From: Gymnodinialimonas sp. 57CJ19
GTDB taxonomy: Bacteria; Pseudomonadota; Alphaproteobacteria; Rhodobacterales; Rhodobacteraceae
Direction of reading: 5' to 3'
Length of the DNA: 64,000 bases
Assembly: GCF_038396845.1 (NCBI RefSeq)
Contig: NZ_CP151587.1
Location: 3,198,001 to 3,262,000 of the forward strand
Shown: positions 32,547-50,535 of the stretch, in pieces
Numbering within the stretch: position 1 is the stretch's first letter
Layout: each line of letters opens with the position of its first letter
Notes under the pieces: model-generated
What the model was told of the DNA's origin: nothing
The model's database searches: none
Seen by the model: only the letters and a program-made list of their open reading frames with translations
Program-made: the position numbers and the translations under genes

Positions 32547-32607
32547 GGGAAGCGTCCTATTGATCGTCAGGCGCGGGCAATCGCGCGAATGGGGTTATCG
32601 GCGGCAC

Positions 32608-33063
32608 CTATTCCAGCGTGCCGTTAAGTTGGGTCCAGGCGAAGCCGCGCCCGTCGGGGAAGATGGCAACCACGCGGTCCACGCCACGGGCGAAGTCGAA
32701 TTGGCTCATGTAGGCCTGCGCCGCGCCGCTCTCCAGCGCCCCGCCAATAGCGGAGGCATCAAAGCAATCGAACCACGCGGGCGGGAACAGAGGCGTGGGG
32801 TCGGCGTAGGGTGTGGCATCGGCCAGAGGGGCCATATCATCCAGCGTGAAACAGGCCCGGTAGCGCAACGGAGAGGTCGCGGCGTCAATGCCTTGCGCGT
32901 CCGAGATCGCCAGCGGCACCAGCGTGCCGTCTTCGGCCTGAACTGTCAGAGAAACCTCTTCCAACGGCGCATAATAGGCGCGGGTGTTGGTGTACCAAAG
33001 ACCCACGCCAAACAGGATCGTGGACAGCACGATCACCACCACGATGATGCGGCCCGAGGTCAC
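32608..33063 (-). CDS. DUF6446 membrane-anchored protein between glyQ and glyS
   Basis: A 151-residue protein starting with GTG at 33063, which overlaps the glyQ stop (GTGA). It has one N-terminal membrane helix ([19 protein letters not shown], about 5-23) and a periplasmic domain with [30 protein letters not shown] and [19 protein letters not shown], which match the DUF6446 family as I know it. Cys residues in RACF and DCF may form a disulphide. Function is unknown. Coupling to glyQ is unexpected for an envelope protein and is kept in relatives, so it may only mark a stable gene order. Confidence 0.82.
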
Positions 33064-34007
33064 GCGGCACCTGCCGCAGTTGTCACATCCGCGCCGCCTG
33101 CTGCCGTTTGCACGAAGGCATCGGCGCACATCTTCGTCAAGGCACGGACCCTGCCAATGTAGGCTTGGCGTTCCGTGACCGAGATCACGCCACGGGCATC
33201 AAGAAGGTTGAACATATGGCTCGCCTTGATCGCTTGGTCGTAGGCGGGGTGGACCATGATGATAAGTTTGCCGGTCTTTGGGTCCACGGCGTCGTGGGAC
33301 AACAGTTGCTGACACTCGGCCTCGGCATCCTCAAAGTGGCGCAACAAGGTCTCGGTGGTGGCCGCGTCGAAGTTGTGGCGGGAGTATTCCTCTTCCGTCT
33401 GGCGGAACACGTCGCCGTAGGTCAGCGCGATCGGCGCATCGGGGTCGTTGTAGGGCATGTCCATGACGTGATCGATGCCAAGGATATAGATCGCCAAACG
33501 CTCCAACCCGTAGGTCAACTCGCCCGAGACGGGGTGGCAATCGTGGCCGCCAACCTGTTGGAAATAGGTGAACTGAGACACTTCCATGCCGTCACACCAC
33601 ACTTCCCAACCCAAGCCCCAGGCGCCAAGGGTGGGGCTTTCCCAATCGTCTTCCACGAAACGGATGTCGTGCAGATCGGTATCAATTCCGATGGCCCGCA
33701 AGCTGCCAAGGTAGAGGTCCTGCAGGTCGGGCGGGCTTGGTTTGATGATGACCTGATACTGATAGTAATGCTGCAAGCGGTTGGGGTTCTCGCCATAGCG
33801 CCCATCGGTGGGGCGGCGCGAGGGCTGCACATAGGCCGCCGTCCACGCCCGGTCGCCCAACGAACGCAGGGTTGTGGCAGGATGAAACGTGCCTGCGCCA
33901 ACTTCCATATCGTAGGGCTGCATGATCGCGCAGCCCTTGGCCGCCCAATACGCCTGTAGGCGCAGGATGATCTCTTGGAACGAGCGGGGGGTGGTTGCCT
34001 CAGTCAT
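33060..34007 (-). CDS. glyQ: Glycyl-tRNA synthetase alpha subunit
   Basis: A 315-residue class II synthetase subunit. It shows [19 protein letters not shown] near the start, [15 protein letters not shown], motif 2-like [21 protein letters not shown], and [18 protein letters not shown]. It activates glycine and partners with the beta subunit encoded 514 bases downstream. The DUF6446 start overlaps its stop. It is divergent from the SPOR/peptidoglycan-binding protein gene, with a 253-base gap that must hold both promoters. Confidence 0.97.
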
Positions 34008-34260
34008 CGGTGAACGGCTCCGGTATAGCGGGTTTGGCGCGATGACTAGACGGGGCGCGGGCCGTGGTCAACAAAGCGACCCGATCCAAAGCGCCGATGC
34101 GGCGATGGCGCATATCGGCCACGCTAGGGGCATCACTTGCGGAAAACTATTGCAAAACAGGGTGCAATCGACGCAAAGCCCCGGTACGTTCAGGACTGGA
34201 TCGCGCGGGTCACGTAGGGCCAAGCGTGTTGAGAATTACATACAGGGTTACGGGATAATC

Positions 34261-36009
34261 ATGGCGATGCGTTTTTTGCAGGGGCTTATGGCCCTGAGTT
34301 TTGTGGTTTTTGGGTTTGTTGGCAGCGCACAGGCGCAGAACCAAGTCTGGGTTCAGATCGAGGCGCATCAAAGCCTTGCCGCCGCCGAACAACGGGTACG
34401 CGCCTATGCGCAACTGGTCGAAAACGTGAACGGTTTTCGCGCCACCACCGGTCTTTACGCCGTGGCCCTTGGCCCGTTTGACCCGGAAACCGGGCAGTTG
34501 GTGATCCAGCGTCTGCTCGGCCAAGGTCTGATCCCACGCGATAGTTTCCTGGAAGATGGCGATCTTTATGCCTCGCAATTCTACCCCGTTGCTGCGGGCG
34601 ATCTGGACCAAACAACCCCGCTTGTTGAGGAAGAGACTGCCGAGGAAATCGTCGTCGAAGAGGTGGTTGAAGAGGTCGTCGTCCCAGACGAGACCCCGCA
34701 ACAGGCCCGCCAGTCCGAGGCCGCCCTGACCCGCGAAGAGCGCGACCAGCTGCAAATCGCCCTGCAATGGTTCGGCTTCTACAATGGCCGCATCGACGGC
34801 GCCTTCGGCCCCGGTACGCGCGGCTCCATGCAGGCGTATCAGACCGACCGCGGGATGGAGCCTTCGGGAATCCTCACCACCCGTCAACGGGCGCAGTTGC
34901 TTGGCGAATATCAGGGCGAGTTGAACGCCCTGGGCATGCGCAACGTGCTGGACCAACGCGCGGGCATCCAGATGGATCTGCCCATGGCGATGGTGAATTT
35001 CGGCAGCTACAACTTCCCCTTCGCCCAATATGACGAAATCAACGACAGCGGCGTGCGCGTCATGTTGATCAGCCAGCCGGGCGACCGGGCGACGCTGTTT
35101 GGCCTCTACGAGATCATGCAAACCCTCGACATCGTCCCCCTTGAGGGCGAACGGGAGCGTGGCAACGACAGCTTCGTGCTGACCGGCCAATCGCCTGAGC
35201 TGCGCTCTCATACCGAAGCGCGGCTGGTGAACGGCGCGGTCAAGGGCTTCACCCTGATTTGGGAGCCTTCCGCCGACGACCAGATCGCTCGTGTTCTGCC
35301 GATGATGCAGGCCAGCTTCCAGGCCGTTGAAGGCTCGCTTGACCCGGCAGCGGTGCCTGAGGGGCTGGATGAAAGCATCGACATGGTCTCTGGCTTGACC
35401 GTGCGCCGACCCGATATCGTGCGCTCTGGCTTCTATCTGGATGCCCAAGGCTCGGTCCTGACAACGACGGAAGTGATCGGCCAATGCGGTCAGATCCTGA
35501 TCGACAACGCCTATGAGGCAACGGTCAGCTTCCGTGATGAGGCTTTGGGCATTGCCGTCTTGACCCCCAACCAACAGCTTGCCCCATTGGGGTTTGCCCA
35601 GGTGGCCGATGCACCTTCGCGTCTGCGTGCAGAGATCGCCGTGGCGGGTTTCCCCTTTGGCGGCGCGTTGTCTTCGGCCTCCACCACCTTCGGCACCTTG
35701 GCGGACCTGCGCGGCGTGAACGGTGAAGAAACCGTACAACGCCTTGCCGTAGACACCGCCGATACCGAGGCCGGCGGCCCGGTTCTGGACCTGTCGGGCA
35801 ATGTCATTGGCGTGGTTCTTCCGGGCACTGTGGGCAACCGCACCCTGCCCTCCGATGTGACGCTGGCGTTGCGCTCGGACCAACTGGTGCCTGTTTTGCA
35901 AGGCGCGGGCATTGGCCTGACGCTGGCGCAGCCCGTGGGCGCATTGAACCGCGAAAACATCAGCCGTGAAGCCGCAGACATGACGGTTCGGGTCAGCTGC
36001 TGGAACTAA
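34261..36009 (+). CDS. Secreted SPOR-like/peptidoglycan-binding protein with inactivated trypsin-like domain
   Basis: A 582-residue protein with a signal peptide (LMALSFVVFGFVGSAQA, cleavage near 25). About 25-110 is SPOR-like, then an acidic Glu/Val linker (120-140), then a peptidoglycan-binding domain at about 155-225 (LQWFGFYNGRIDGAFGPGTR). Residues about 380-570 follow the trypsin/DegP fold: SVLTTTEVI, GIAVLTP and AGGPVLDLSGNVIGV. However, the expected catalytic His, Asp and Ser are Glu404, Gly430 and Ala504. So it is probably a pseudoprotease that binds wall and protein partners. The start has MAMRFLQ with an upstream longer frame rejected because it lacks a signal. Confidence 0.83.
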   Translation: MAMRFLQGLMALSFVVFGFVGSAQAQNQVWVQIEAHQSLAAAEQRVRAYAQLVENVNGFRATTGLYAVALGPFDPETGQLVIQRLLGQGLIPRDSFLEDGDLYASQFYPVAAGDLDQTTPLVEEETAEEIVVEEVVEEVVVPDETPQQARQSEAALTREERDQLQIALQWFGFYNGRIDGAFGPGTRGSMQAYQTDRGMEPSGILTTRQRAQLLGEYQGELNALGMRNVLDQRAGIQMDLPMAMVNFGSYNFPFAQYDEINDSGVRVMLISQPGDRATLFGLYEIMQTLDIVPLEGERERGNDSFVLTGQSPELRSHTEARLVNGAVKGFTLIWEPSADDQIARVLPMMQASFQAVEGSLDPAAVPEGLDESIDMVSGLTVRRPDIVRSGFYLDAQGSVLTTTEVIGQCGQILIDNAYEATVSFRDEALGIAVLTPNQQLAPLGFAQVADAPSRLRAEIAVAGFPFGGALSSASTTFGTLADLRGVNGEETVQRLAVDTADTEAGGPVLDLSGNVIGVVLPGTVGNRTLPSDVTLALRSDQLVPVLQGAGIGLTLAQPVGALNRENISREAADMTVRVSCWN

Positions 36010-36019
36010 ACCTTAGCCG

Positions 36020-36038
36020 CGCGCCTTCTTCAGGCGCG
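36020..36038 (+). repeat. Short hairpin after the SPOR/peptidoglycan-binding gene
   Basis: CGCGCC and GGCGCG flank a 7-base loop, followed by TCAAAAG. It lies 11 bases after the stop and before the true terminator, and may stabilise the 3' end. Confidence 0.4.
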
Positions 36039-36059
36039 TCAAAAGTCTGAATACATAAC

Positions 36060-36089
36060 AAAGCCGGGCGCATGATACGCCCGGCTTTT
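36060..36089 (+). terminator. Intrinsic terminator of the SPOR/peptidoglycan-binding gene
   Basis: AAAGCCGGGCG and CGCCCGGCTTT form a perfect 11-bp stem with a 7-base loop, followed by a T-rich tail (TTTTCCTTTT). Confidence 0.93.
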
Positions 36090-36221
36090 CCTTTTGGTGT
36101 GTCACAAACGGGACCCATACACAGGGGACAGAAGGACGTGTTGGGCAAGTACACACCGCAAGGATGGCTGCTGCCTGCACGAATGGCCCGCACGAACACG
36201 CGGACCATCCGAATATCTGGC

Positions 36222-36782
36222 TTAAGCGGCAGGCAACATTACTGTGTCGATCACGTGGATCACGCCATTGGACTGGTCCACATCGGGGATCGTGACCGTG
36301 GCGACTTGGCCCTGCTCGTCGGTCAATGTGATCATGTCGCCGTTCATTTCAGCGGTCAGGGTGCAGCCGCCGAGGGTCTCAACCGGGTGCGCGCCGCCGT
36401 CATCTGCGATCATGCCGCCAATGGCGTCAGAGAACACTTCCGCGCCCACAACGTGGCAGGTCAGGATTTCGACCAGTCGGTCGCGGTTTTCAGGCTCGAG
36501 CAACGCAGCCACGGTGCCTTCAGGCAGCGCGGCGAATGCGTCATCGGTGGGCGCAAATACGGTGAACGGACCGTCGCCTGCCAGCGTGTCCACAAGGCCT
36601 GCTTCCACAACCGCTGCGACCAGCGTTGTGTGGATGGGCGAGTTGCTGGCGTTCTCGACGATGTTCATTTCCATCATCATGTCAGCGCCGCCAACCTGTG
36701 GGTTCGCGTGGCCATCGGCGAAAGCTGCGCCGGAAAGAAGAGCTGCTGCGGACAAAGTTGCTGCAAAGGATTTGATTGTCAT
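36222..36782 (-). CDS. Fasciclin-domain secreted protein
   Basis: A 186-residue secreted protein with a signal peptide (FAATLSAAALLSGAAFA, cleavage near 22) and one fasciclin (FAS1) domain from about 40: TLVAAVVEAGLVDTLAGDG, then PFTVFAPTDDAFAALP and NGVIHVIDTVMLP, the standard H1 and H2 boxes. Cys residues in LTCHVV and GGCTLT may pair. FAS1 domains mediate adhesion or ligand binding. It is third in line after an ECF sigma factor and its RskA-type anti-sigma factor on the same strand, 142 bases from the latter, and is the likely regulon member. The gap holds inverted repeats. Confidence 0.93.
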   Translation of the reverse strand: MTIKSFAATLSAAALLSGAAFADGHANPQVGGADMMMEMNIVENASNSPIHTTLVAAVVEAGLVDTLAGDGPFTVFAPTDDAFAALPEGTVAALLEPENRDRLVEILTCHVVGAEVFSDAIGGMIADDGGAHPVETLGGCTLTAEMNGDMITLTDEQGQVATVTIPDVDQSNGVIHVIDTVMLPAA

Positions 36783-36847
36783 TGTGAGTGTTCCTCAGTT
36801 GGTTGCCGGGTCGCTGCCCGGAGACATGAGAAGCCACGAAAAGACGG

Positions 36848-36886
36848 TTCATCTTGTTTCAAAAAAGATGAAATATTCTGATGAAC
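36848..36886. repeat. Inverted repeats upstream of the fasciclin gene
   Basis: TTCATCTT and AAGATGAA (36848-36855 and 36865-36872) are a perfect 8-bp pair around 9 bases, and a third element, GATGAAC at 36880-36886, mirrors GTTCATC at 36847-36853. The region is AT-rich, unlike its surroundings. It could be an operator, promoter region or transcript hairpin. Confidence 0.5.
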
Positions 36887-36924
36887 GATTTGTGATCTTG
36901 GAAAAGTCGTTTCCGACCAGCACC

Positions 36925-37656
36925 TTACAGCGCAACAAGCGTGCCCAAGGCAAGAACATCGCCAGTCGGATCACCCGTGGGCGAGCCGCCCAAAGGCTCA
37001 TCAGTGATGGCCAGCGCCGCCCCCACCGTGAACAGCGCATCCAAATCCGCGTCAGGGGTCAGGGTGGTCAGCGCGTCGTCGTCCAAAATACCCAACGACA
37101 CTGGCGCATTGTCGCCCACAATCACCCACAGCTCCTGCGAGCGGTCTGCGGCCATGGTGCCCGCCACCCGGCGCACTTGCAGCACGCCAGAGGGCTCTCG
37201 GGTTACGGCAAGTCCCAGGGTGGAGCCTTCAAGGGGCACCAGATGGGTCATCAACAACGTCCCCGCCGGGATGCCCGTTTCCGGCACATCGGTGGTGGGG
37301 AGCTGGATATTGGTCAAAACGGCAAAGCCCACCGCCGCAATCGCCAGTGCCGAGGTTGTGACCGACAGCCCGCGCCAGAAGCCCACGCGGTCCCATAGGC
37401 TGCCGCGGGTGGTTTCGGTGCTGAAAACCTGCGCCTCGATGCTGTGTAGAACACGGGCGGGCGGGGCCACGGGCGCGACCTCCAGATCAGCCATCGTGGC
37501 GAAATAGACCTCCCATTGGCGGATTTCTTTGGCCAACACGGGCTCGGCCCGCAGCCGCGCTTCAAACGCGGTGCGCTCAACGGGCGACAGCAGGCCGAGC
37601 ACATACTCAGCCGCCAGCGGGTCCGTCTCAGGCGGTATGTCGGTCCGGTCGCTCAC
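36925..37656 (-). CDS. Anti-sigma factor, RskA/ChrR-like
   Basis: A 243-residue membrane protein starting at a GTG (37656) that overlaps the sigma factor stop (GTGA). The cytoplasmic anti-sigma region (about 1-70: DPLAAEYVLGLLSPVERTAF) has no HxxxCxxC zinc motif. One membrane helix lies at about 103-125, and the periplasmic C-terminal part follows RskA: GTMAADRSQELWVIVGD and LAITDEPLGGSPTGDPTG. It should hold the adjacent ECF factor at the membrane until a periplasmic signal triggers proteolysis. Coupled translation keeps the pair balanced. Confidence 0.9.
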   Translation of the reverse strand: MSDRTDIPPETDPLAAEYVLGLLSPVERTAFEARLRAEPVLAKEIRQWEVYFATMADLEVAPVAPPARVLHSIEAQVFSTETTRGSLWDRVGFWRGLSVTTSALAIAAVGFAVLTNIQLPTTDVPETGIPAGTLLMTHLVPLEGSTLGLAVTREPSGVLQVRRVAGTMAADRSQELWVIVGDNAPVSLGILDDDALTTLTPDADLDALFTVGAALAITDEPLGGSPTGDPTGDVLALGTLVAL

Positions 37657-38195
37657 GACGCGAGGCACTCCTTCAAACTGTTCAGACTGCGGCGCAGCCA
37701 TGTTTTCATCGTGTTTAGCGGCACATCGTACCGCAAGGCCATGTCCTGATACGACTGCCCTTCCAGATAGACGCCGCGAACGGCGTTGGCGCGGTCCGCG
37801 TCCAGCTCCGCCAGGCAATCCACGATCCGGCCCGCTTCACTGGCCGCAATCGCCGTCTGCTCGGGCGTGGCGCCGAGGGCCGAGAGCGTCACGATGTCAT
37901 CGACATCGTCCGTCGCGGGACCCTGTGCGCGCAATCGGTCAATCGCCGCGTTGCGTGCAATCGTAATCATCCATGTCATCGGACTATGCCCGGTCACCCG
38001 GTAACGGTCCGCCTTGTTCCAAATCTTGACGTAAACATCCTGCAAAACATCTTCCGCGCCAGCTCGGTCCTTTAAGACACGCAGGATCACCCCGAAAAGT
38101 TTCGCAGAGGTTGCCGAATAGAGGGAAGAAAAAGCCGAACGGTCGCGCAATTGGATGCGCGCCATCATTTCCTCAAGGTCCTGCGGCGTTGTCAT
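37653..38195 (-). CDS. ECF sigma factor, SigK/RpoE-like
   Basis: A 180-residue group 4 sigma factor. Start [16 protein letters not shown]; an upstream in-frame extension is unlikely. Region 2 is at about 20-90 ([55 protein letters not shown]), and region 4 at about 125-175 ([31 protein letters not shown]). Its stop overlaps the anti-sigma start. SigK-RskA pairs in mycobacteria control fasciclin-like proteins (MPT70/83), and here a fasciclin gene follows. The target promoter sequence could not be fixed. Confidence 0.92.
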
Positions 38196-38331
38196 GGGCC
38201 TACCCAAAGCACAGCTTGCGCCAGGTTGCCAGTCACGAGTGTTCCTGTTGTCACGGCGCCCTCCCCCTTGCAGCGCCGCGTTATTTAATGCATTTCGAGC
38301 GGAAGGCAATTTCCAGATTTTTGAGGGCACC

Positions 38332-39321
38332 ATGGCCGACGGCAACAGCTTGAGCATCGACGCGAAACCCACCGAAGAGTTCTCGGTCCGTGAGGTGTTC
38401 GGCATCGACACGGATATGAAGGTCAAGGGTTTTGCCGAGCCGACTGACCGCGTGCCCGAGATTGATCCGACCTATAAGTTTGATCCCGACACCACCTTGG
38501 CGATCCTTGCAGGCTACGGCTACAACCGCCGCGTTATGGTGCAGGGTTACCACGGCACCGGCAAATCCACCCACATCGAGCAAGTTGGCGCACGTCTGAA
38601 CTGGCCCACCGTGCGGGTAAACCTCGACAGTCACATCAGCCGGATCGACCTGATCGGTAAAGACGCCATCAAGCTGCGCGACGGCAAACAGGTGACAGAA
38701 TTCCACGAAGGCATCCTGCCTTGGGCGCTGCGCAATCCCGTGGCCATCGTGTTTGATGAATACGACGCGGGCCGCGCCGACGTGATGTTCGTGATCCAGC
38801 GCGTGTTGGAAACCGACGGCAAGCTGACCCTCATGGATCAGAACGAGATCATCACCCCAAACCCCTATTTCCGCCTTTTCGCCACGGCCAACACCGTGGG
38901 CTTGGGCGACACGACGGGTCTGTACCACGGCACCCAGCAGATCAACCAAGCGCAGATGGACCGTTGGTCTCTTGTCGCAACGTTGAACTACCTGTCCCAT
39001 GATGCGGAGGTGAACATCGTTCTCGCCAAGCAGCCCCACTACAACACCGAGGCCGGTCGCAAGACGATGAGCCAGATGGTGACGGTGGCGGAGCTGACCC
39101 GCACGGCATTCATGAACGGAGAGCTTTCCACCGTCATGTCGCCTCGGACTGTCATCAACTGGGCCCAGAACGCTGAAATCTTCCGCGACGTGGGCTATGC
39201 CTTCCGCGTGTCGTTCCTGAACAAATGTGACGAGTTGGAGCGCCAGACCGTGGCCGAGTTCTACCAGCGTTGCTTCGATGAAGAGCTGCCCGAAAGTGCC
39301 GCCTCCATGAGCCTTGGCTGA
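38332..39321 (+). CDS. cobS: Cobaltochelatase subunit CobS
   Basis: A 329-residue AAA+ ATPase of the aerobic cobalt-insertion complex (CobNST) for B12 synthesis. Start [18 protein letters not shown]. Walker A GYHGTGKS is at 72-79, Walker B VAIVFDE at about 137-143. The MoxR-like sensor stretch [13 protein letters not shown] and the C-terminal [12 protein letters not shown] are present. It assembles with CobT as a ring and inserts cobalt with CobN, not seen in the window. CobT follows after five other genes. It overlaps the next frame by 8 bases and is divergent from the sigma factor. Confidence 0.96.
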
Positions 39322-39667
39322 TCGGAACGATACTACACCCGCGTCCGGCAATTCGGGCGCGGATCATCTCGGCCGTAACCCTGTTGTAACGCCGTCGAAA
39401 AAGCCGCGAACGTCGCTTTGGGTCGGTGTCACCATCGCATTTCTCGCGGTTCTGCAATTTGGCCCGTCGCTTGCGATCATCGTGCAGCGGGACATGATGG
39501 GCCAAATGGATTGGGCGGGCTACATTGGCTACCAATTGGGCAGCCTGTTCGTTCCTTTGGTGATCGGGTGCCTAGGTTTGCTGTTCCGGCGAAACCGAGG
39601 GCTTGGTTACTTCGTGGTTTCTTTTATGGTGTTCGTGTTCGCGAGCCTTGGAAGCACACTCGCCTGA
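39314..39667 (+). CDS. Small membrane protein after cobS
   Basis: A 117-residue product whose only available start near the reading frame is TTG at 39314, overlapping the cobS stop by 8 bases. It shows three hydrophobic segments: [41 protein letters not shown] and [19 protein letters not shown]. No family is recognised. The coupling to cobS and the membrane pattern favour a real gene. A role with cobalt uptake is possible but unsupported. The weak upstream Shine-Dalgarno keeps the confidence moderate. Confidence 0.55.
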
Positions 39668-39763
39668 AGTATCGGGCACCTAACGTATCGGGCGCCCCAC
39701 TTATCGGGCGTCTAGAGCATCAGGGCTTGCAGCACCAAGTGTGCAACCAAAGCTGGGAACGTT

Positions 39764-40693
39764 ATGGGCCTGAGATACCTCATTTCCCTCGTCGCGCTGG
39801 TCTTGACTGTGGGCGCGCTGAATGCGGAGGGACTTCGCCCGCCCGCCTTTTCCACTCGCCCTGCGGCGCTTGCTGACATCCGCGCTGCGATTGCGTGGTT
39901 CGGGGCCCATTGCGCGATGAACGCCCGCGAGATCGACCACTACGGCGCATCGGTAAGCCTCGCTTCGCTGTCGGAAGAAACCGGCGTCGCGCTGGAGGAG
40001 ATCACCCGTTTGGCCCAGGCACGGGGCCGAGAGAACGCCGTTGCCGTCGCCGTATTGCACGCCGGTGGGGAGCCCCCGCGCAATCCGCCGGAACCGTTCC
40101 TCTCGCTGCTGCGCCAAGTTCAATCCGATTGCCAGGATTTTGAGCGTATGCGCAATGTCCTCCGCCACGAAATGGCGCGGGACGTTTTGCCCGAGGTTGC
40201 TTTGGAGGACGGAGAGAGGGAGCTTGGGGATTTGCTGGACCCACAGCGCTTCGACCAAGGCCGCGCGACCCGCATGGGCTATGTCCTGGCAGCGGTGGAC
40301 GACGTATTGCAGGCCGGACAATTTGAAACCGAATTGCGCGACCTCGCCCGCCTGATCTCGGGCCAAGAGGACCTTGAGCTTGCAGATATCGCAGGCATCC
40401 CCTCAGGCGTACAACGGCGCTGGATTGCGGCGGAATTGCTGCTGCCCGCCCCTGAAATCATCACCGACCTGACAGCTGCTGAAGCATCAGACCTTTTGCA
40501 GCGTATCGAGACTTCCCCGGAAGGGGCGCTGACCCGGTTTTACGTCCGAGTGCTGATCGCCAACCCCGAGGCCAGCCGACGGGCCACCCTGACCCAAGGC
40601 GGGTCCGGTGTGCTGACCTTTCAGGAATACCCGTCGGATCTGACCTGCCACCCGATTGGCGATAGCGCCGCCTTGCGTTGCCAGTCGTCCTGA
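39764..40693 (+). CDS. Secreted protein of unknown function
   Basis: A 309-residue protein with a signal peptide (MGLRYLISLVALVLTVGALNA) and no recognised domain. It is alpha-helical and rich in Ala, Leu and Arg, with three Cys in the mature part (in AHCAM, SDCQD and LTCHP) and a fourth in ALRCQSS near the end, suggesting disulphides. A helix-rich core spans about 100-230. The C-terminal TFQEYPSDLTCHPIGDSAALRC is compact. It lies 96 bases after the small membrane protein and 72 before the lipoprotein, in one direction, so all may be one transcript with cobS. Confidence 0.75.
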   Translation: MGLRYLISLVALVLTVGALNAEGLRPPAFSTRPAALADIRAAIAWFGAHCAMNAREIDHYGASVSLASLSEETGVALEEITRLAQARGRENAVAVAVLHAGGEPPRNPPEPFLSLLRQVQSDCQDFERMRNVLRHEMARDVLPEVALEDGERELGDLLDPQRFDQGRATRMGYVLAAVDDVLQAGQFETELRDLARLISGQEDLELADIAGIPSGVQRRWIAAELLLPAPEIITDLTAAEASDLLQRIETSPEGALTRFYVRVLIANPEASRRATLTQGGSGVLTFQEYPSDLTCHPIGDSAALRCQSS

Positions 40694-40765
40694 CGGCAGG
40701 CTTCGGGGCAAGGGGCGTGGGTTTTCCCCTCGACCCGCGGCAGCTCCTTGGGTCACATTTGCCCG

Positions 40766-41245
40766 ATGAAACACCTCGCTCTTCTGCCCGTTCTATTCAT
40801 CGCGGCCTGCCAGCCCACCTATAATCCCGGTCAAACTGTGACCCTTGCGGGCGGGGAGACCTGCACCGTGCTTGGCCCGGACCCGCAGGGCACACGGCTT
40901 GATTGTGCGACCCGTGGGGTGATTATCGCGGATATCCAAACGCCCGATATCAATGCGCAACTCAACCCTGAAATCGCGCCGGGCGTGCGGCTTGGCGACA
41001 TTCCCGGCGTGCCCAACATCCCGGTCATTCCGCAAACCGAGGCAGAGGCCGCCTGCCGGGCGGGCCAATACGCCCAGAACCGGGTGCGGGGTGAGGTACG
41101 GGGCGCCGTGGAGGGCGCCGTGCTGGAAGCGGCGGGCTTGCCGGGCAACACACTGGGACTCATCCGTCGCAGCCAAGACATCGCGCGCCGCATCGAAGGA
41201 CGCCCCTCAGCGCCCGCCCCCGTCGACCCTTGCGCCGGATTGTGA
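40766..41245 (+). CDS. Lipoprotein of unknown function
   Basis: A 159-residue lipoprotein starting MKHLALLPVLFIAACQP, with the lipobox Cys at residue 15. The mature N-terminus is followed by a short beta-rich part with two Cys (GETCTVLG, LDCATRG), then Pro/Ile-rich PGVPNIPVIPQT and a helical, Arg/Gly/Ala-rich C-terminus. The upstream ATG at 40748 would add six residues and is not preferred. No family recognised. It follows the secreted protein in the same direction. The palindrome array at 41259 begins 13 bases after its stop. Confidence 0.75.
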   Translation: MKHLALLPVLFIAACQPTYNPGQTVTLAGGETCTVLGPDPQGTRLDCATRGVIIADIQTPDINAQLNPEIAPGVRLGDIPGVPNIPVIPQTEAEAACRAGQYAQNRVRGEVRGAVEGAVLEAAGLPGNTLGLIRRSQDIARRIEGRPSAPAPVDPCAGL

Positions 41246-41258
41246 CGCCAGCGCAGGG

Positions 41259-41346
41259 CAGGAATTTGCAAATTCCTGTCCAACGCCCTTGCAAGGGCGT
41301 TAATCAGAGCCTTGCAAGGCTCTGCACAGGCTTTTGCAAAAGCCTG
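41259..41346. repeat. Array of four perfect 20-bp palindromes centred on TTGCAA
   Basis: Four self-complementary 20-mers lie almost back to back: CAGGAATTTGCAAATTCCTG (41259-41278), AACGCCCTTGCAAGGGCGTT (41282-41301), CAGAGCCTTGCAAGGCTCTG (41305-41324) and CAGGCTTTTGCAAAAGCCTG (41327-41346). Centre spacings are 23, 23 and 22 bp. All share the TTGCAA core, but the outer arms differ and each is fully paired, so symmetry rather than sequence is kept. The array lies between the lipoprotein and the dehydratase gene. It may be a binding array for a dimeric protein or a REP-like element. Confidence 0.9.
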
Positions 41347-41393
41347 CCGCGCGCCCGTTGACCATCGCGCGTGACGGGTCCATCGTCGCGCCC

Positions 41394-42332
41394 ATGACAC
41401 ATCCTATGCCTGACGCCATTTCGGCCGCCGCCCCGTTGATCGCCCCTTATATTCGCCGCACGCCAATTCTTTCAGTGGAAGCGCATGCGCTCGGTCTGCC
41501 CTGCCCCGTGACTTTCAAGCTGGAGCACACACAGATCACCGGATCGTTCAAGCTGCGCGGCGCGTTTTACAACATGTTAACCCGGGATGTGCCCCCCACC
41601 GGTGTGGTGGCCGCGTCAGGCGGCAACCATGGCGCCGCCGTGGCTTACGCGGCTACAACGCTCGGCCATCAAAGCCGCATCTACGTCCCGTCGTTGATCG
41701 CGAAAGAGGAGAAACTGCGCCGGATGCGCGGCTTTGGCTGCGAGGTCGTGTTGACTGAAGGCTCCGTGGGGGCCTGCATGGACGAATATGCCGCCTACGC
41801 GCAGGCCTCTGGTGCGCTCTCGGTGCATCCCTATGACACGATCCCGACGCTCACCGGCCAGGGCACATTAGCCCGGGAGATCGAGGCGCAGATGGACGGA
41901 ATTGACACGATCTTTGTATCCACCGGCGGCGGCGGCCTCATTGGCGGTATTTCCGCATGGTTCCGGGACCGCGTGAAGATCGTCTCGGTCGAGACCGAGG
42001 GAACGAACACGCTGGAGAAATCCATGCGTGAAGGTCCAGACATCGACGTTTCCGCCAGCGGGGTCGCAGCGGGGTCTTTGGGCGGGCCAAGGCTTGGCGT
42101 CGATAGCTTTGCCTTGATCCGAGAGTTTGTGGACGAGGCCGTGATCTTGCCGGACTCGGATGTCTTTGATGCCGCCAACCGCTTGTGGGAGGCCACCCGC
42201 CTGATCGGAGAGCCGGGCAGCGCCGTGGCGTTGGCGGCGCTGACCTCGGGCGCCTATGTGCCAGAGAAGGACGAGAAAGTTTGCGTCGTGCTCTGCGGCG
42301 GCAATGCCGAGCCCGATTGGTTCGTCCAGTAG
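41394..42332 (+). CDS. Threonine/serine dehydratase-like PLP enzyme
   Basis: A 312-residue fold type II PLP enzyme. Start MTHPMPDAISAA. The PLP lysine is in ITGSFKLRGAFYN (SxKxRGA), the substrate Asn loop is ASGGNHG, the phosphate loop STGGGGLIGG, and a C-terminal VVLCGGNAEPD. It probably deaminates threonine or serine to an oxo acid. It lacks a regulatory ACT domain, so it is the short catabolic type. Related ectoine-utilisation and serine racemase proteins look similar, so the substrate is uncertain. A palindrome array ends 47 bases upstream of its start. It stands in a cobS-cobT interval whose genes share direction. Confidence 0.88.
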   Translation: MTHPMPDAISAAAPLIAPYIRRTPILSVEAHALGLPCPVTFKLEHTQITGSFKLRGAFYNMLTRDVPPTGVVAASGGNHGAAVAYAATTLGHQSRIYVPSLIAKEEKLRRMRGFGCEVVLTEGSVGACMDEYAAYAQASGALSVHPYDTIPTLTGQGTLAREIEAQMDGIDTIFVSTGGGGLIGGISAWFRDRVKIVSVETEGTNTLEKSMREGPDIDVSASGVAAGSLGGPRLGVDSFALIREFVDEAVILPDSDVFDAANRLWEATRLIGEPGSAVALAALTSGAYVPEKDEKVCVVLCGGNAEPDWFVQ

Positions 42333-42463
42333 CGGCGATTAACAGCATAGGCGCATGTCGCGACGCGCCCTGCCCATCGCCACGCGCAAAACGCTGCGGG
42401 TTTTCCAGCCTTGGCCTGCGCTGCCGCGCCGGTCAAAGTGGCGTTTTATGTCAAGGATATCCC

Positions 42464-43123
42464 ATGCGTTTTCTGTCCCTTGCAGCCCTCGCCCTTGTTC
42501 CCCTGCCCGCCACGGCGCAAACCTCGGCGGAAATGGAAGTCCTTCCACGCCTGATCGCCAGTGCCTGCTTTGATCTGGTGGAAGAGCGTCACGGCTGCGA
42601 GACCGTCGTGCTCCTGACGTCAGAAACGGAACCGGACACCGCCGACCTGCTGATCTTCTCGGACCGCCGTGCCAACGCGCCGCACGAAAGCCTTGCCGTG
42701 GCGCGCAACATTGCTTTCAATGGACCGATGTTTGGCCAATCTCCCAGCCTTGCGCAGGCTGAGAATGGATCGCTACAAGTGATCGAAGAGCAAATCGGCA
42801 TCGGCCGCTTTACCTGGACAAATGAATTAACCATCGCCTACCGGGACGGGGCCTTCGTGATGGCGGGGCAGACCTATTCAACCTATGATCGGATCATGGG
42901 CGGATCGTATAGCTGCGATACAAACTTGCTGACCGGAGACTGGATCGCTTCGGCCGAACGTCCCGACCCCGACGAAACCCAAGACGCGCCGATCTTCGAT
43001 GTGACCGAGCGCGGACAGATTGCCGGGGCCCATATCGCGTTGTCGCAATGGAACCCGGAACAAAGCCGCCCGCAACCCTGCGACGATGTCTTTACCGCGT
43101 GGTACGAGGCAGCCCCGCAGTGA
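42464..43123 (+). CDS. Secreted protein of unknown function upstream of cobT
   Basis: A 219-residue protein starting MRFLSLAALALVPLPATAQ, an evident Sec signal with AQ cleavage near residue 19, preceded by AAGGAT. An upstream frame exists but overlaps the dehydratase gene. Four Cys (ASACFD, HGCETV, YSCDTN, QPCDD) in the mature region suggest two disulphides. The sequence reads as a compact beta-rich domain. No family was recognised. It precedes cobT by 63 bases in the same direction. Confidence 0.78.
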   Translation: MRFLSLAALALVPLPATAQTSAEMEVLPRLIASACFDLVEERHGCETVVLLTSETEPDTADLLIFSDRRANAPHESLAVARNIAFNGPMFGQSPSLAQAENGSLQVIEEQIGIGRFTWTNELTIAYRDGAFVMAGQTYSTYDRIMGGSYSCDTNLLTGDWIASAERPDPDETQDAPIFDVTERGQIAGAHIALSQWNPEQSRPQPCDDVFTAWYEAAPQ

Positions 43124-43186
43124 TTTTACGCCCCTGCTTCAGTCGCAGGTCTTGCTCTTGGCCCCGTGTCGGTCCAGATATCAGGG

Positions 43187-45067
43187 ATGAGCAAGTTCAA
43201 CCCCTCCGATAATCCCGCTGACCCGTTCAAGAAGGCCCTTGCCGACGCGACGCGGGTGATGGCCGATGATCCCGATCTCGCCGTGACCTATACCGTTGAT
43301 CCCCCCGGGCTCAGCGCCGACAGCGTCCGCTTGCCTCAGGTCAGCCGCCGGATGACCCGCGAGGAGGTTCTACTGGCCCGTGGCACCGCCGATGCATTGG
43401 CCCTGCGCCACAAATATCACGACCAAGGCACCGCTGCGCGGTACGCGCCGCAAGGGGCGATGGCCCGCGACCTGATGGACGCGATGGAAAACGCCCGCTG
43501 TGAAGCCATGGGCGCCCGCGACATGCCCGGCACCGCAGGCAACATCGACGCGAAAATCGGCCACGATGCCCGCCGCAAAGGCTACGGCGAAATTCGCGAA
43601 GCATCAGACGCCCCCCTGTCCACTGCGGCGGGCTACCTGATCCGCCACCTTGCCACGGGCCGCGATCTGCCGCCTGAGGCGAGCAATGTGATGGAGCTAT
43701 GGCGTGGCTTTATCGAGGACCGTTGCGACGGCACTTTGGAAGACCTGCAAGACGTGCTGTCTGACCAAAAGTCCTTCGCCAAATTCGCCCGTCAGTTGAT
43801 TGACGATCTGGGCTACGGCGACCAGTTGGGCGATGACCCCGATGATATGGACGACGAGGCCGAAGACGACGCCGGCGAAGACACAGAAGACGACGCCCCC
43901 GACAGCACCGGCGAAGACGACAATGATGACGAAGAGGCAGAGGCCTCTCCCGAGCAGTCGCAAGAGGAACAGCAGGACGAGTCCCAAGCCCAGGTCGAGA
44001 TGGACGACAACGGCGATATGGACGAGGCGGAAGAGCAGGAAATGCCCGACGGCGAAGCGCCGCAGGAACCTCTGCCGCCTGCACCTCATTCCGAGGCAGA
44101 TCCCGGCTATACGGTGTTCTCGACCGAGAATGACGAGGAAATTGCCGCCGAAGACCTTGCCGAGGCACAAGAACTGGAACGCCTGCGGGCCTATCTGGAT
44201 CAACAGCTCGATCCGCTGAAGGGCGCTGTGTCGCGCCTTGCCAACAAATTGCAGCGCCGCCTTCAGGCGCAACAGAACCGATCCTGGGAATTTGACCGCG
44301 AGGAAGGCATTCTTGATGCGGGCCGCCTGGCGCGTGTGGTGGCCAACCCCACAACACCCCTGTCCTTCAAGGTCGAAAACGATACCGAATTCCGCGACAC
44401 GGTGGTGACGCTGCTGCTCGATAACTCGGGCTCCATGCGGGGCCGCCCGATCTCTATCGCGGCGATCTGTGCCGATGTTCTGGCCCGCACGTTGGAGCGG
44501 TGTGGCGTGAAGGTAGAGATCCTGGGCTTCACCACGCGGGCGTGGAAGGGCGGCAAGGCACGGGAAGAATGGTTGGCCGAGGGTCGCCCGCAACAGCCCG
44601 GGCGCCTGAACGACCTGCGCCACATCGTCTATAAATCGGCCGATGCGCCGTGGCGGCGCGTGCGCGATAATCTGGGCCTGATGATGAAAGAGGGTCTGCT
44701 GAAGGAAAACATCGACGGCGAAGCGCTGGAATGGGCGCACCGCCGGATGGTGGGCCGCACCGAAGCGCGCAAGATCCTGATGGTGATCTCGGACGGGGCG
44801 CCGGTGGACGACAGCACGTTGTCGGTAAACCCGGCCAACTATCTGGAAAAACACCTGCGCGACGTGATCGCCATGGTCGAGAAACGCCGCGCGGTGGAGC
44901 TTCTGGCAATCGGCATTGGCCACGACGTGACCCGCTACTATGAGCGGGCGGTGACGATCACCGACGCCGAGCAATTGGCGGGCGCGATTACAGAACAACT
45001 GGCGTCGTTGTTTGATACCGACCCACGGGCGCGCGCGCGCGTAATGGGGATGAAACGGGTCGGCTAG
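43187..45067 (+). CDS. cobT: Cobaltochelatase subunit CobT
   Basis: A 626-residue partner of CobS. The start [14 protein letters not shown] is preferred; an in-frame start 7 codons earlier exists. The N-terminal domain is followed by a long acidic stretch (about 215-305: [15 protein letters not shown] and similar), then a C-terminal von Willebrand A domain with a MIDAS motif LDNSGSMRG at Asp412. It stimulates and regulates the CobS ATPase ring that, with CobN, inserts cobalt into hydrogenobyrinic acid diamide. The acidic linker and MIDAS domain are typical. Confidence 0.95.
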
Positions 45068-45247
45068 GCCCCCCTGACCGGCGCCTCGTCGGCGCCTCTT
45101 ACAACGGCCCCGCGATATTGGCCCTCCAACCGGGCCCGCCGCCCTTTCAGGGCTGCATCGACAACGACGCCTCAGGCCACCTCCCTTGCGCCCGCGCCTT
45201 CGGCTTGGGCGCGGTGGCCCCTGCGGGGCGCTGAACAAAGGTTAAGC

Positions 45248-47059
45248 ATGTTCCAAGATTTCACCGCATCGACCCGGCCCGAAGATGGCCCCCCGCGCCT
45301 TGCCGCCCTAAGGGCGCAGATTGCCAAGGTCGGGTTGGATGGCTTTCTTGTGCCACGCGCCGATGCCCACCAAGGCGAATACGTGGCCGACTGCGATGCG
45401 CGACTGGCGTGGGTGACGGGTTTCACCGGATCGGCCGGGTTTGCCGCCGTGCTGCCCGATGTGGCGGGTGTTTTCGTGGACGGACGCTACCGGGTGCAGG
45501 TGCGGGCGCAGGTGGCCGATGTCTTTACCCCCGTGGATTGGCCCGAGGTCCAACTGGCCGAATGGCTCCGCTCGGCCCTGCCCCAAGGCGGCAAGGTCGG
45601 GTTTGACCCCTGGCTGCATACGGGGCGCGAGATTGCGACGCTGGAAACGGCGCTTGGCGGCTCAGGCGTTGAACTGGTCCCCTCGAACAATCTGGTGGAT
45701 GCGATCTGGACAGACCGCCCGGCCCCGCCCGCTGCCCCGATCACGATCTTTCCCGATGATATTGCCGGAAGAACCGCCGCTGAAAAACGTGCAGCCTGTG
45801 CCGAGGCTTTGCGCGATGCCGGCCACGGGGCGGCGGTGCTGACCCTGCCCGATGGGATTTGCTGGCTGCTCAACATCCGAGGCTCGGACATTGCGCGTAA
45901 TCCTGTGGTCCAAGCCAATGCGATCTTGTTTGACGATGGCACCCTGCGCCTTTTCCTCGACGACGCGCGACTGACGCCAGACCTGCGGGCGCATCTGGGG
46001 CCTCAGGTGCACACTGCCCCCCCGTCCAGCTTTCCCGCTGCCTTGGAAGGGCTGGAAGGCACCGTGCGCCTGGATACCGCCAGCGCGCCCCACGCGATTT
46101 CGGAAATCCTGCAAGACGCGGGCGTGGATATCGCCGCCGAGCGCGACCCGACGGTCTTGCCCAAGGCCCGCAAAACCGACGCCGAGATCGCCGCCACAGG
46201 CACCGCACACCTGCGCGACGCCGTGGCGATGGCGCGGTTCCTGCATTGGTTCGATGAAACCGCACCCACCGGCACCCTGACGGAAATCGACGTGGCCAAA
46301 CAACTCGAGAGCTTCCGGCGCGACACCGGCGCGTTGAAAGAGCTCTCGTTTGACACCATCGCAGGCGCCGGCCCCAACGGCGCGATCGTCCATTACCGGG
46401 TGACAGAGCAGACAAACGCCCAGGTCGTGCCCGGCCAATTGTTCCTGATCGACAGCGGCGGGCAATACGAGGACGGCACCACCGATATCACGCGCACCCT
46501 GCCCGTCGGCACGGTCGGGGATGAGGAACGCGAGTGCTTCACGCTGGTCCTGCAAGGGATGATCGCTGTGCACCGCACGCGCTTTCCCAAGGGTGTCGCC
46601 GGGCAGCATCTGGATGCGCTGGCCCGTGCGCCCTTGTGGTCCACTGGACGCGATTATGACCACGGCACCGGCCACGGCGTTGGCGTCTATCTGAACGTGC
46701 ACGAGGGGCCGCAGGGCCTGTCGCGCCGCAGTGACGTGCCACTGGAGCCGGGGATGATTGTTTCAAACGAGCCGGGCTACTACCGTGAAGGGGCCTTTGG
46801 CATTCGGATCGAGAACCTGATCTACGTGGTGGACGCTCCCGAAGGGGCCGATCCGCACCGCAAGATGTTTGGTTTCGAGACCCTGACATTCGCCCCCATC
46901 GACCGCCGCCTGATTGTGACCGAAAGGCTCTGCGTTGCGGAACGGGACTGGCTCAACACCTACCACGCCGATGTTCTGGCCCGCGTCACACCGCTGTTAC
47001 AGGCCGGGGGCTACACTGCCACAGCCGCCTGGCTGAAGGCCGCCTGCGCGCCGATTTAG
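45248..47059 (+). CDS. pepP: Xaa-Pro aminopeptidase (aminopeptidase P, M24)
   Basis: A 603-residue metalloprotease with two creatinase-like N-terminal domains and a C-terminal pita-bread M24 domain. Dinuclear metal ligands: LIDSGGQYEDGTTDITR (two Asp), GTGHGVG (His), SNEPGYY (Glu) and IRIENLIYV (Glu). It removes the first residue from peptides with proline in position two. The long three-domain form, about 600 residues, is the eukaryote-like type that also occurs in alphaproteobacteria. It follows cobT by 180 bases, with a CCGCGCC hairpin in between, and is likely monocistronic. Confidence 0.93.
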   Translation: MFQDFTASTRPEDGPPRLAALRAQIAKVGLDGFLVPRADAHQGEYVADCDARLAWVTGFTGSAGFAAVLPDVAGVFVDGRYRVQVRAQVADVFTPVDWPEVQLAEWLRSALPQGGKVGFDPWLHTGREIATLETALGGSGVELVPSNNLVDAIWTDRPAPPAAPITIFPDDIAGRTAAEKRAACAEALRDAGHGAAVLTLPDGICWLLNIRGSDIARNPVVQANAILFDDGTLRLFLDDARLTPDLRAHLGPQVHTAPPSSFPAALEGLEGTVRLDTASAPHAISEILQDAGVDIAAERDPTVLPKARKTDAEIAATGTAHLRDAVAMARFLHWFDETAPTGTLTEIDVAKQLESFRRDTGALKELSFDTIAGAGPNGAIVHYRVTEQTNAQVVPGQLFLIDSGGQYEDGTTDITRTLPVGTVGDEERECFTLVLQGMIAVHRTRFPKGVAGQHLDALARAPLWSTGRDYDHGTGHGVGVYLNVHEGPQGLSRRSDVPLEPGMIVSNEPGYYREGAFGIRIENLIYVVDAPEGADPHRKMFGFETLTFAPIDRRLIVTERLCVAERDWLNTYHADVLARVTPLLQAGGYTATAAWLKAACAPI

Positions 47060-47166
47060 AACCAACTCTGGCGCGGGCTCAGGCCCGCGTCAGGGCCGCG
47101 CCTTGTGCCTGCCGCATGTCGCAGGGTACATACAGCGCTCAATCAGACATTATATGGGAGTAATTC

Positions 47167-47508
47167 ATGGCCGATCACATCTCGATCCGCTCAGCATCCG
47201 GCACTTGGGTCGTCCGCGCCAGCGGTGCCGTTCTGGGCGAAAGCTCTGCCGCGCTGGAACTGATTGAAGGCGATATGCCGGCGGTCATCTATTTCCCCCG
47301 CGAAGACATCGGGATGAGTTTTCTGGAGCAGACCCAGACATCGACCACCTGCCCGCACAAAGGCACAGCGACCTATTTCACTGTAACCGGCCCCGATGGC
47401 GACGCCGTCGATGCCGCGTGGAGCTACGAGACACCGCTTGACGGTGTGAAAGAGATTGCGGGCCACATTGCGTTTTACACCGACCGGGTGGCGGTCGAGA
47501 AGCTCTAG
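47167..47508 (+). CDS. DUF427 domain protein
   Basis: A 113-residue single-domain protein. Motifs AVIYFPREDIGMSFLEQTQTS, CPHKGTATYFTV and AAWSYETP are those of DUF427 (a small SH3-like beta barrel). No enzymatic activity is established as far as I know. ATG at 47167 has TGGGAG upstream. It is convergent with the next gene, whose stop is 11 bases away. Confidence 0.93.
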   Translation: MADHISIRSASGTWVVRASGAVLGESSAALELIEGDMPAVIYFPREDIGMSFLEQTQTSTTCPHKGTATYFTVTGPDGDAVDAAWSYETPLDGVKEIAGHIAFYTDRVAVEKL

Positions 47509-47518
47509 CGCGTATTGC

Positions 47519-48586
47519 TCAGCGGTTCAGAAGGAACCCAAGACGTCCGCCGTTCAGGGCATTGAGAAAAACCTCATAGGCGGCATTGCTTGCCGCGCCG
47601 TCGTCGCCCCAATCGCTGCGCATGGTCAGCGTGATGGACCCGCCGCCTGCGGAGATTTCCGGTTCGGCCGGGGATGGCAATTCGCTCAGGATTGGCCACG
47701 CCTCGCGCAGTCGAACGGCCAGGGATTCTGCGTCCACACCCTCGGCAAGGGCCAGAACCATCGCAGCGCCCTCTGTCTCTCGGTTGGCGAAATCGGCCAG
47801 GGCCAAAGCTTCGACCGGGCCCGCCTCTGCGCCGGTGATCGGCAACTCGGCCCCGTTGCGCAGCCAGCAACGGACCGAGACGACACCGCCCAGATTACCC
47901 ACCCGCCGCAAGCCGCCAAGCAATGTCTGCGCATCGGCGCGGGCGGCGAGGTTCGCCCCCGTGGGCGCGCGCACCGCATCCAGCGCCGTCCACCCTGTAG
48001 CCCAGATCGCGCGATCCCCCAAGAAAAGCATCCGCAGGGGCAAGCCTTGATCGCCCCCGAAGGGATGGGCCGGATCACGCGCGAATGTATCTGCGGCGTA
48101 GTCGGTATCCCCGTGCCAAAGCACCGGGGCGCCGCCGCGGTCGTCTTCGGAAAGTCCGTTTGAAAACAACGCGCCCCGCAGGCGCATTTCGCTGTCGGGG
48201 AAGATATCCATCGCACCCACGCGCACCGTGCCTGCGGACACTTCCCATGTTTCCACCCAGTCGAGCGCCGTCAGCCCCACGGCAGCGCGGATCGCCGCAT
48301 CCTCGGTTCCTTCGATGATGTCGCGTTGCAAGGGCGCGGCAGAGCGGAGCGCTGCAAACCGGTTTGGCGTGTTCGGGTTGCGCCCTGCCTGAGCGCCGCG
48401 CACCGCGATCCAGCGCACCGCATCGCCATTGCCGTAGCCCGCAATGATTGGCCCCTCCGCGCCGTCCAGCACCGCTTGCGGCACGCTGGAAAGCACGGTT
48501 TGCAACCGACCCGCCGCGCCCTGAGCAGCGGAGGTTTGGGCGCTGAGTAACAGCAGAGCGAGGGCGAAAAGAATCCGGATCAACAT
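47519..48586 (-). CDS. Secreted protein of unknown function
   Basis: A 355-residue protein with a signal peptide (MLIRILFALALLLLSAQTSA). The start at 48586 is preferred; 48598 and 48622 are alternative in-frame ATGs. The mature part has no recognised domain, is Ala/Gly/Leu-rich and shows a pattern of alternating strands and helices; only one Cys (VSVRCWLR). It lies 63 bases after the ClC channel stop on the same strand, so may be co-transcribed. It ends next to DUF427. Confidence 0.7.
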   Translation of the reverse strand: MLIRILFALALLLLSAQTSAAQGAAGRLQTVLSSVPQAVLDGAEGPIIAGYGNGDAVRWIAVRGAQAGRNPNTPNRFAALRSAAPLQRDIIEGTEDAAIRAAVGLTALDWVETWEVSAGTVRVGAMDIFPDSEMRLRGALFSNGLSEDDRGGAPVLWHGDTDYAADTFARDPAHPFGGDQGLPLRMLFLGDRAIWATGWTALDAVRAPTGANLAARADAQTLLGGLRRVGNLGGVVSVRCWLRNGAELPITGAEAGPVEALALADFANRETEGAAMVLALAEGVDAESLAVRLREAWPILSELPSPAEPEISAGGGSITLTMRSDWGDDGAASNAAYEVFLNALNGGRLGFLLNR

Positions 48587-48649
48587 GGCTGCAAGCATGC
48601 CGTGTCCCAGCCCATTCACCAAAGAAATAATCTGTTTCCGAATGCCAAG

Positions 48650-50338: not shown

Positions 50339-50458
50339 GGGACAGGCTCACTTTCTGGCGCGGAACGCATCTGGGGGACACCGAGGGGCAACGCCGCGCG
50401 GCCGCCTCCCCTGAATACCATTACTTTAAAACGGTAGAGAAAGCTTAAGGATTTGGAA

Positions 50459-50505
50459 AGCCACAGCCCTGGAAATTCAGTGTTTTCCGACAATTGGGTG
50501 TGGCT
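50459..50505. other. Nested stem-loop between recN and the ClC gene
   Basis: AGCCACA (50459-50465) pairs with TGTGGCT (50499-50505), and CCC with GGG beside a one-base bulge. Inside is GGAAA...TTTTCC. On the transcribed strand it lies between the recN stop and the ClC start. No U-tract follows. It may be a weak terminator or a leader structure. Confidence 0.35.
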
Positions 50506-50535
50506 GTCCGGCACGGCGGGGGGGGTATCGGGGGC

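Follow-up and report, generated by a model that had tools for sequence, protein, structure and literature searches.

Short arrays of TTGCAA-centred palindromes near stop codons in Gymnodinialimonas and related genera as a possible gene-end signal

Described palindromic repeats and the array of the window

The REP and BIME elements are clustered short palindromes which are extragenic, lie mostly downstream of genes in convergent or codirectional arrangement, and are plausibly transcribed (PMC3733652). REP families are sorted by the consensus of stem and loop, and CGTC REPs, of which CGTC-1 has 8-bp stems and 4-nt loops, are common in Alphaproteobacteria (PMC3733652). Hairpin clusters devoid of a U-trail have been proposed as termination units (PMC8355165): these are generic predicted hairpins of inter-operon regions, at least two of them being adjacent and close behind a stop codon, with stems mostly of length 4–10 and no need for poly-U. 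In the terminators of B. cereus, stems are kept by paired changes, with 76–87% of the changed stem pairs being single-sided and about 5% of the pairs being G-U (PMC5381666). A palindrome (AGCCTTGCAAGGCT) has also been reported in the oriV of the Paracoccus plasmid pMARC4, upstream of the replication iterons (PMC3832669).

The window analysed here is a stretch of 64,000 nucleotides of Gymnodinialimonas sp. 57CJ19 (contig NZ_CP151587.1, positions 3,198,001 to 3,262,000). Its own genome (3.86 Mb) is referred to as G000, and 12 other species of the genus as G001–G012. Positions 41259–41346 of the window hold four perfect 20-bp palindromes with arms of 10, all centred on TTGCAA and none assigned to a strand: palindrome 1 (CAGGAATTTGCAAATTCCTG, 41259–41278), palindrome 2 (AACGCCCTTGCAAGGGCGTT, 41282–41301), palindrome 3 (CAGAGCCTTGCAAGGCTCTG, 41305–41324) and palindrome 4 (CAGGCTTTTGCAAAAGCCTG, 41327–41346). 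They are separated by two spacers of 3 nt (41279–41281 and 41302–41304) and one of 2 nt (41325–41326). The original prediction, made from the letters of the window, of four such palindromes 22–23 bp apart is borne out, with measured centre-to-centre spacings of 23, 23 and 22 bp, and so is its claim that chance is very unlikely: the base composition leads one to expect 0.11 20-bp palindromes of this kind and about 3e-14 four-membered clusters per window. Apart from these four, the longest palindromes in the window are two with arms of 7. The TTGCAA word itself is not enriched (16 observed against 18.7 expected, counted in the window only), and a DNA uptake sequence, which would be a fixed word in great genome-wide excess, is not supported by this count.

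The array begins 13 nt behind the TGA codon (41243–41245) of an ORF on the + strand (40766–41245), which from its N-terminus is read as a putative small lipoprotein and for which no NCBIfam match was found at 1e-5. The downstream gene, on the same strand, codes for a serine/threonine dehydratase (41394–42332; NF006094, E 1.5e-120) with its ATG 47 nt beyond the array, ORF tools placing the start earlier, at a TTG inside the array. The dehydratase is present in all 13 genomes of the genus, and its alignment begins at residue 1 or 2 in 12 of them.

The arrays are extragenic palindromic repeats, REP-like in location and different in anatomy. They share with the REP and BIME elements the clustering of short palindromes, the extragenic place downstream of genes and the plausible transcription, and their 8-bp stems and 4-nt loops resemble those of CGTC-1, but here one loop recurs almost unchanged on freely variable stems, unlike in families sorted by stem and loop (PMC3733652). 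They also differ in having no clear GTAG or CGTC tag, and Y1_Tnp, the domain of the RAYT transposases associated with GTAG REPs, is missing in most array-bearing genomes of the genus. A terminal CGTC was found on 2, 2 and 0 of the 136, 116 and 138 hairpin-strands in G000, G002 and G004, respectively, and a terminal GTAG on 0, 2 and 0 of them, with about 1.4–1.6 expected in each case; TGTC beside the stems is slightly above expectation (5, 3 and 3). Like the hairpin-cluster terminators, the arrays consist of adjacent hairpins close behind a stop codon that lack poly-U. They differ from these terminators by one conserved loop, near-perfect palindromy, a spacing of 22–23 bp and the recurrence of the array at some two dozen places in a genome. 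Paracoccus belongs to the same bacterial order as the organism of the window. The pMARC4 palindrome has the same centre and a similar arm, but a single palindrome is reported rather than a gene-end array, and the comparison covers the palindrome itself (PMC3832669).

No description of this element was found among titles and abstract starts, a coverage outside of which many subscription journals lie. TTGCAA, “palindrom” and “Rhodobacter” were not found together in one paper, no REP term occurs among the best 15 of 495 matches to Rhodobacteraceae names, and in passages of PMC2267715 and PMC3733652 none of the Rhodobacter-type genus names looked for came up. Rfam gave no match over the gathering cut-off in the window, and for nine array loci a single match far below it (mir-266, 35.9 versus 80 bits), which was taken as chance.

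Distribution of the arrays and their position relative to genes

Pairs of TTGCAA cores 10–40 nt apart occur 48 times in G000, against once for a reversed control pattern. The 26 stretches outside the window which cover these matches comprise 22 arrays of 2–4 palindromes and 4 chance pairs, so that G000 has 23 arrays with that of the window included, dispersed from 33 kb to 3.85 Mb and carrying 26 different arms. The commonest arm is that of palindrome 3, carried by 8 of the 68 elements. The partition signal that had been suggested for the array is not supported by this dispersal and by the place at gene 3' ends. A parS-like site, expected as few near-identical copies clustered near the origin or par genes, is likewise not supported, as judged by the spread of the arrays and the variety of their arms. 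When selected on cores alone, 70 cores in G000 lie 20–28 bp apart. Six of these belong to chance pairs, in which no more than 3 of the 7 arm positions match. Of the remaining 64, 62 are paired at all 7 positions and 2 lack the outermost pair only. All 7 arm pairs are also found in 53 of 54 cores in G002 and 64 of 68 in G004, sets which, G000 alone having been selected on two TTGCAA cores only, leave out those core pairs that by eye were not palindromic (3 of 38 and 2 of 43, respectively). The pairing percentages of alignment A1 hold by construction, its palindromes having been picked for perfect arms. A few hairpins have broken arms, the worst keeping 4 of 7 pairs (L105, in G004), which counts against a role as 3'-end hairpins. 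A looser palindrome pattern matches 71 places in G000, compared with 4 for its control, and among the matches listed, those outside arrays are one lone palindrome and four non-palindromes. The lone one (G000:C1:335221-335238) is a perfect TTGCAA palindrome and possibly a remnant.

Two arrays of G000 about 1 Mb apart, L056 (2983–3048) and L063 (2958–3023), agree in all three palindromes and in their order but not in their spacers, and lie behind different genes, DapB-like and an MFS transporter. This sharing suggests that arrays may be copied. Some arrays of G004 are double (L107, L117 and L125), with two palindrome pairs split by a GC-rich stretch, which in L107 and L125 seems able to form a hairpin of its own. 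An outer closing stem around the arrays was also considered, as GCGC...GCGC flanks looked complementary by eye, and was rejected: the mean pairing of real flanks in the four sets (4.17, 4.37, 5.17 and 5.00) is no better than that of swapped ones (4.61, 4.63, 5.02 and 5.10).

With a codon-usage gene caller, the nearest stop codon is at most 30 nt from the array for 21 of 23 arrays in G000, 18 of 19 in G002 and 20 of 22 in G004 (59 of 64 in all; each genome has one array with an 11-nt overlap with the stop), the counts for G000 and G002 not being independent, as these genomes are close and their array sites largely the same. One of the misses in G000 (L053) lies 7 nt from the stop of a LysR-type gene overlooked by the gene caller. 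The second miss, L066, is a real exception, as are L093 and L106, its orthologues: none of the three sits behind a called stop codon, which counts against a 3'-end role; an ORF does end 26 nt before L066, and was not counted since it overlaps a called gene on the other strand. With these three exceptions, adjacent hairpins are found at most 80 nt behind a stop codon. The arrays lie between convergent genes in 9, 7 and 9 cases in G000, G002 and G004, respectively, that is for 9 of the 22 classified arrays of G000 compared with 3 of the 38 gaps in the window (p 0.005). At codirectional sites the array follows the upstream stop, and in some of them the downstream start is also near (47 nt in the window, 30 nt for L062). 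The neighbours of the G000 arrays are mostly housekeeping genes, with some names being an interpretation of domains: RuvA, DapB, DnaB, class II ribonucleotide reductase, penicillin-binding proteins, aconitase family, NtrC-type regulator and thiolase. No functional theme was seen among the flanking proteins, of which 20 were searched against Pfam and 5, including two of the window, against NCBIfam, and aragorn, run without a positive control on the given array loci, found no tRNA beside them.

At the locus of the window, the array precedes the dehydratase gene in G000, G002, G004, G007 and G012, and is absent in the other eight of the 13 genomes. Palindrome 1 is identical in G002, G004 and G012, while in G007 its arms pair around a centre with one extra base. 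In the latter genome, palindrome 2 reads CACCATCTTGCAAGATGGTG, with changes mirrored on both arms, and palindrome 4 has an outer A-T pair in place of C-G. In G012 the arms are perfect and two centres have changed (palindrome 3 to ATGCAA, palindrome 4 to TTGAAA). The same-looking upstream gene end (compared by eye) is followed by a short array-free stretch in G001, G005, G006 and G008, which indicates that the cassette is dispensable there and counts against the 3'-end reading. The sequence upstream of the dehydratase looks different in G003, G009, G010 and G011.

In a wider search, a covariance model was made for pairs of adjacent palindromes, with G000 and G004 as training data. It matched 52 of 394 genomes of the family (393 genera) at E 1e-4, an approximate count given that at most 16 candidates were scored per genome with strict filters and rough E-values. 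A mixed-loop model matched 3 of 289 genomes in a class-wide sample, all in the family and including that of the window. Matches occur in 8 of the 13 genomes of the genus: seven array-bearing ones (G000, G002, G003, G004, G007, G011 and G012), with 32–88 matches counted on both strands, and G008 with 2. In G001, G005, G006, G009 and G010 the mixed-loop model gave no match at E 1e-4, other loop types included. In a one-gene tree with mostly weak support, the array-bearing G003 falls among array-free species, which together with the orthologous sites suggests repeated wholesale loss of the arrays. Such arrays thus recur among relatives, as the original prediction had proposed to check, and their place is kept at stop codons, often between convergent genes, with the locus of the window shared by four other species; this is contrary to the outcome (no arrays in relatives and an unconserved locus) that it had named as evidence against itself.

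The 27 loci from other genera, which rank among the best of a search trained on TTGCAA, have centres TTGCAA (45), TTCGAA (7), TTCCAA (3), TTGGAA (3) and TTCAAA (1), two further ones being taken as script miscalls. The centre is mostly TTNNAA with NN being GC, CG, CC, GG or CA, a variation that would fit a loop. The commonest 2-nt spacer in these genera is GC (13 of 20). In alignment A2 (L141, L142, L145 and L147, about 1501–1542), it often completes an extra TTGCAA where two palindromes join, so that the word appears every 11 bp. The rule of position is weaker here, only 15 of 26 arrays having a stop within 30 nt, which again counts against action at 3' ends.

Evolution of arms, centres and spacers

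Between G000 and G002 (18 orthologous arrays, 413 arm pairs), 410 pairs are unchanged, 2 differ in both arms and 1 in a single arm. In spacers of equal length, 20 of 93 positions differ. Between G000 and G004 (13 orthologous arrays, 245 arm pairs), the corresponding counts are 232, 12 and 1, with 26 of 37 positions differing in equal-length spacers and 5 spacers of changed length. The arms are far more conserved than the spacers in both comparisons (nominal p 6e-17 and 2e-21, respectively). The centre is unchanged at all 354 positions in G002 and has changed at 1 of 210 in G004, where it is more conserved than the arms (25 of 490 nt changed, p 0.0017). Changes are both-sided, and still paired, in 14 of the 16 changed arm pairs, with a change in L056 appearing in both comparisons. 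Elements were matched if a minimum of 6 arm positions out of 7 were paired, and badly broken hairpins could escape this matching. All 59 G000 elements were matched where the array has an orthologue in G002, and 35 of 38 where it has one in G004. As in the B. cereus terminators (PMC5381666), stems are kept by paired changes, but with only 2 of 16 changes single-sided and only 2 G-U among 1302 in-array arm pairs. Both of these G-U are outermost, and 2 further A-C pairs correspond to G-U on the other strand. Departures are often in the loop (ATGCAA, TTGAAA, TTGGAA, CTGAAG, TTTCGCAAA) or at the stem end, with the stem still paired.

Seven arrays were examined in G003, of which four are at sites orthologous to G000 arrays, with arms partly or largely different. 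The seven arrays contain 18 cores, 14 of them with every one of the 7 arm positions paired and the other 4 with 6 paired. Another site in G003 (L194, about 1490–1535, TTGCAATTTCATGTAACATGAAATTGCAA) is a long inverted repeat that fits the core-pair pattern and is not an array of the TTGCAA family. Within one array, equal arms are found in none of the 75 pairs of G000 and none of the 66 of G002, compared with 3.35 and 3.45 in shuffles (P 0.026 and 0.023, not independent), and in 2 of 81 pairs in G004 (P 0.12). No avoidance is seen in other genera.

The claim that the arms differ with each change mirrored holds inside the array of the window and for nearly all changed pairs between orthologous arrays. 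That selection on symmetry, rather than simple duplication, underlies it is well supported by these sequence comparisons, according to which relatives would keep the symmetry rather than the letters: arms change nearly only in mirrored pairs, spacers drift, and arms are rarely shared within an array. The near absence of G-U indicates that both strands or the DNA itself may be constrained, or that template switching, which can create and repair hairpin stems (PMC8794818), would quickly repair the arms.

Possible roles of the arrays

The near-constant loop, the mirrored variable stems, the departures in loops and at stem ends, and the place behind stop codons argue for hairpins acting at transcript tails. 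The reading we favour, with a probability of about one half, is that the array of the window is a 3'-end hairpin cassette which defines and protects mRNA ends. If the upstream gene is transcribed through it, the mRNA tail behind the stop codon would fold into a row of short hairpins with 8-bp stems and a UGCA tetraloop, 2–3 nt apart. Transcription would end further downstream, by Rho or another way independent of a U-tract, and exonucleases would trim the transcript back to the hairpins; alternatively, the hairpin cluster itself could help termination. The conserved loop would be recognised by a factor, and template switching between arms in replication may help keep the palindromes perfect. 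Since stems and loop read alike on both strands, one cassette could serve two convergent genes. The mean energy of a single hairpin in G000 is -8.7 kcal/mol, and all local hairpins are present in the RNA MFE structure of 16 of 23 arrays in G000, 11 of 19 in G002 and 12 of 22 in G004. The MFE of the window array pairs palindromes 1 and 4 together, which, like the lower shares in G002 and G004, counts against this reading. The near absence of G-U at codirectional sites also counts against a 3'-end role, as it is not predicted by plain selection on single-stranded RNA.

It is possible, though doubtful, that the palindromes rather act as double-stranded DNA, bound or extruded as cruciforms, for a nucleoid protein, gyrase or another topology factor at gene ends. 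DNA-level binding by topology factors has been proposed for the BIMEs of E. coli. Such a role would fit near-perfect symmetry with almost no G-U even at codirectional genes, as well as the enrichment between convergent genes. It would also fit the spacing of 22–23 bp, tight in all four array sets (G000, G002, G004 and other genera), which puts the sites roughly on one face, and the GC spacer of other genera, which often completes a TTGCAA 11 bp away. However, arms that are widely different yet exactly mirrored are needless for a dimer reading sequence, the two central bases vary in other genera, also asymmetrically, and the arrays of the genus are strongly biased to stop codons over promoters. 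Of the phased array for a dimeric protein that had been envisaged, the period is real, while the exact mirroring of 25–26 distinct arms per genome fits stem pairing better.

An unlikely explanation is that of a selfish or decaying REP-like repeat, copied and tolerated at gene ends, whose palindromes would be perfected without function by template switching, which is able to make and mend hairpin stems (PMC8794818). Non-orthologous arrays do share arms (three between L056 and L063, and other loci repeat the same order), and presence among species is patchy. At E <= 0.001, Y1_Tnp (PF01797) was found in 2 of the 13 genomes of the genus, both array-bearing (G007, over the cut-off, and G003, below it), but not in the array-rich G000, G002, G004, G011 and G012. 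Arms and centre far more conserved than spacers, with the centre, which stem repair does not mend, changing least, count against a repeat of this kind, as do the orthologous sites in G000, G002, G004 and partly G003. Further, an exact search of a viral contig collection for the 18-bp core of the palindrome that is commonest gave no match, and no phage or plasmid record holds an array, the best matches having E of at least 3. The idea of mobile-element hairpins is weakened by these orthologous sites, by the lack of a clear REP tag and by the viral, phage and plasmid searches, and is kept alive by the Y1_Tnp matches of G007 and G003.

Ordinary intrinsic bidirectional terminators with a U-tract, suggested by the hairpin shape and the position behind stop codons, are very improbable, since the longest T-run in the 12 nt behind any of the 64 arrays is 3 on either strand, and a search of 32000–51999 for terminator-like sites gave 29, none of which is the window array. 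A conventional site of this type was found at 36060–36088, on both strands and between two ORFs, with a 13-pair stem on the - strand.

Returning to the 3'-end cassette, a more general proposal, which we put forward tentatively, is that hairpins with a constant loop (TTGCAA, generally TTNNAA) and variable stems form a family-specific gene-end system read by a dedicated trans-acting factor, acting on the loop in the RNA of either strand or in extruded DNA, and that sister species lost essentially all arrays through losing this factor. Because arrays are nearly all-or-none among sister species, a partner protein could be sought by simply comparing which proteins are present or absent alongside them. 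The arrays also offer a clean natural test of whether symmetry is due to selection or to template switching, as loop, stem and spacer are separately scorable and hardly any G-U intermediates occur. Taken together, the results point to an undescribed kind of gene-end signal in which symmetry is kept while the letters change. If it is indeed a 3'-end signal, it would be a compact strand-symmetric element, setting two convergent mRNA ends without a U-tract in many genera of one family.
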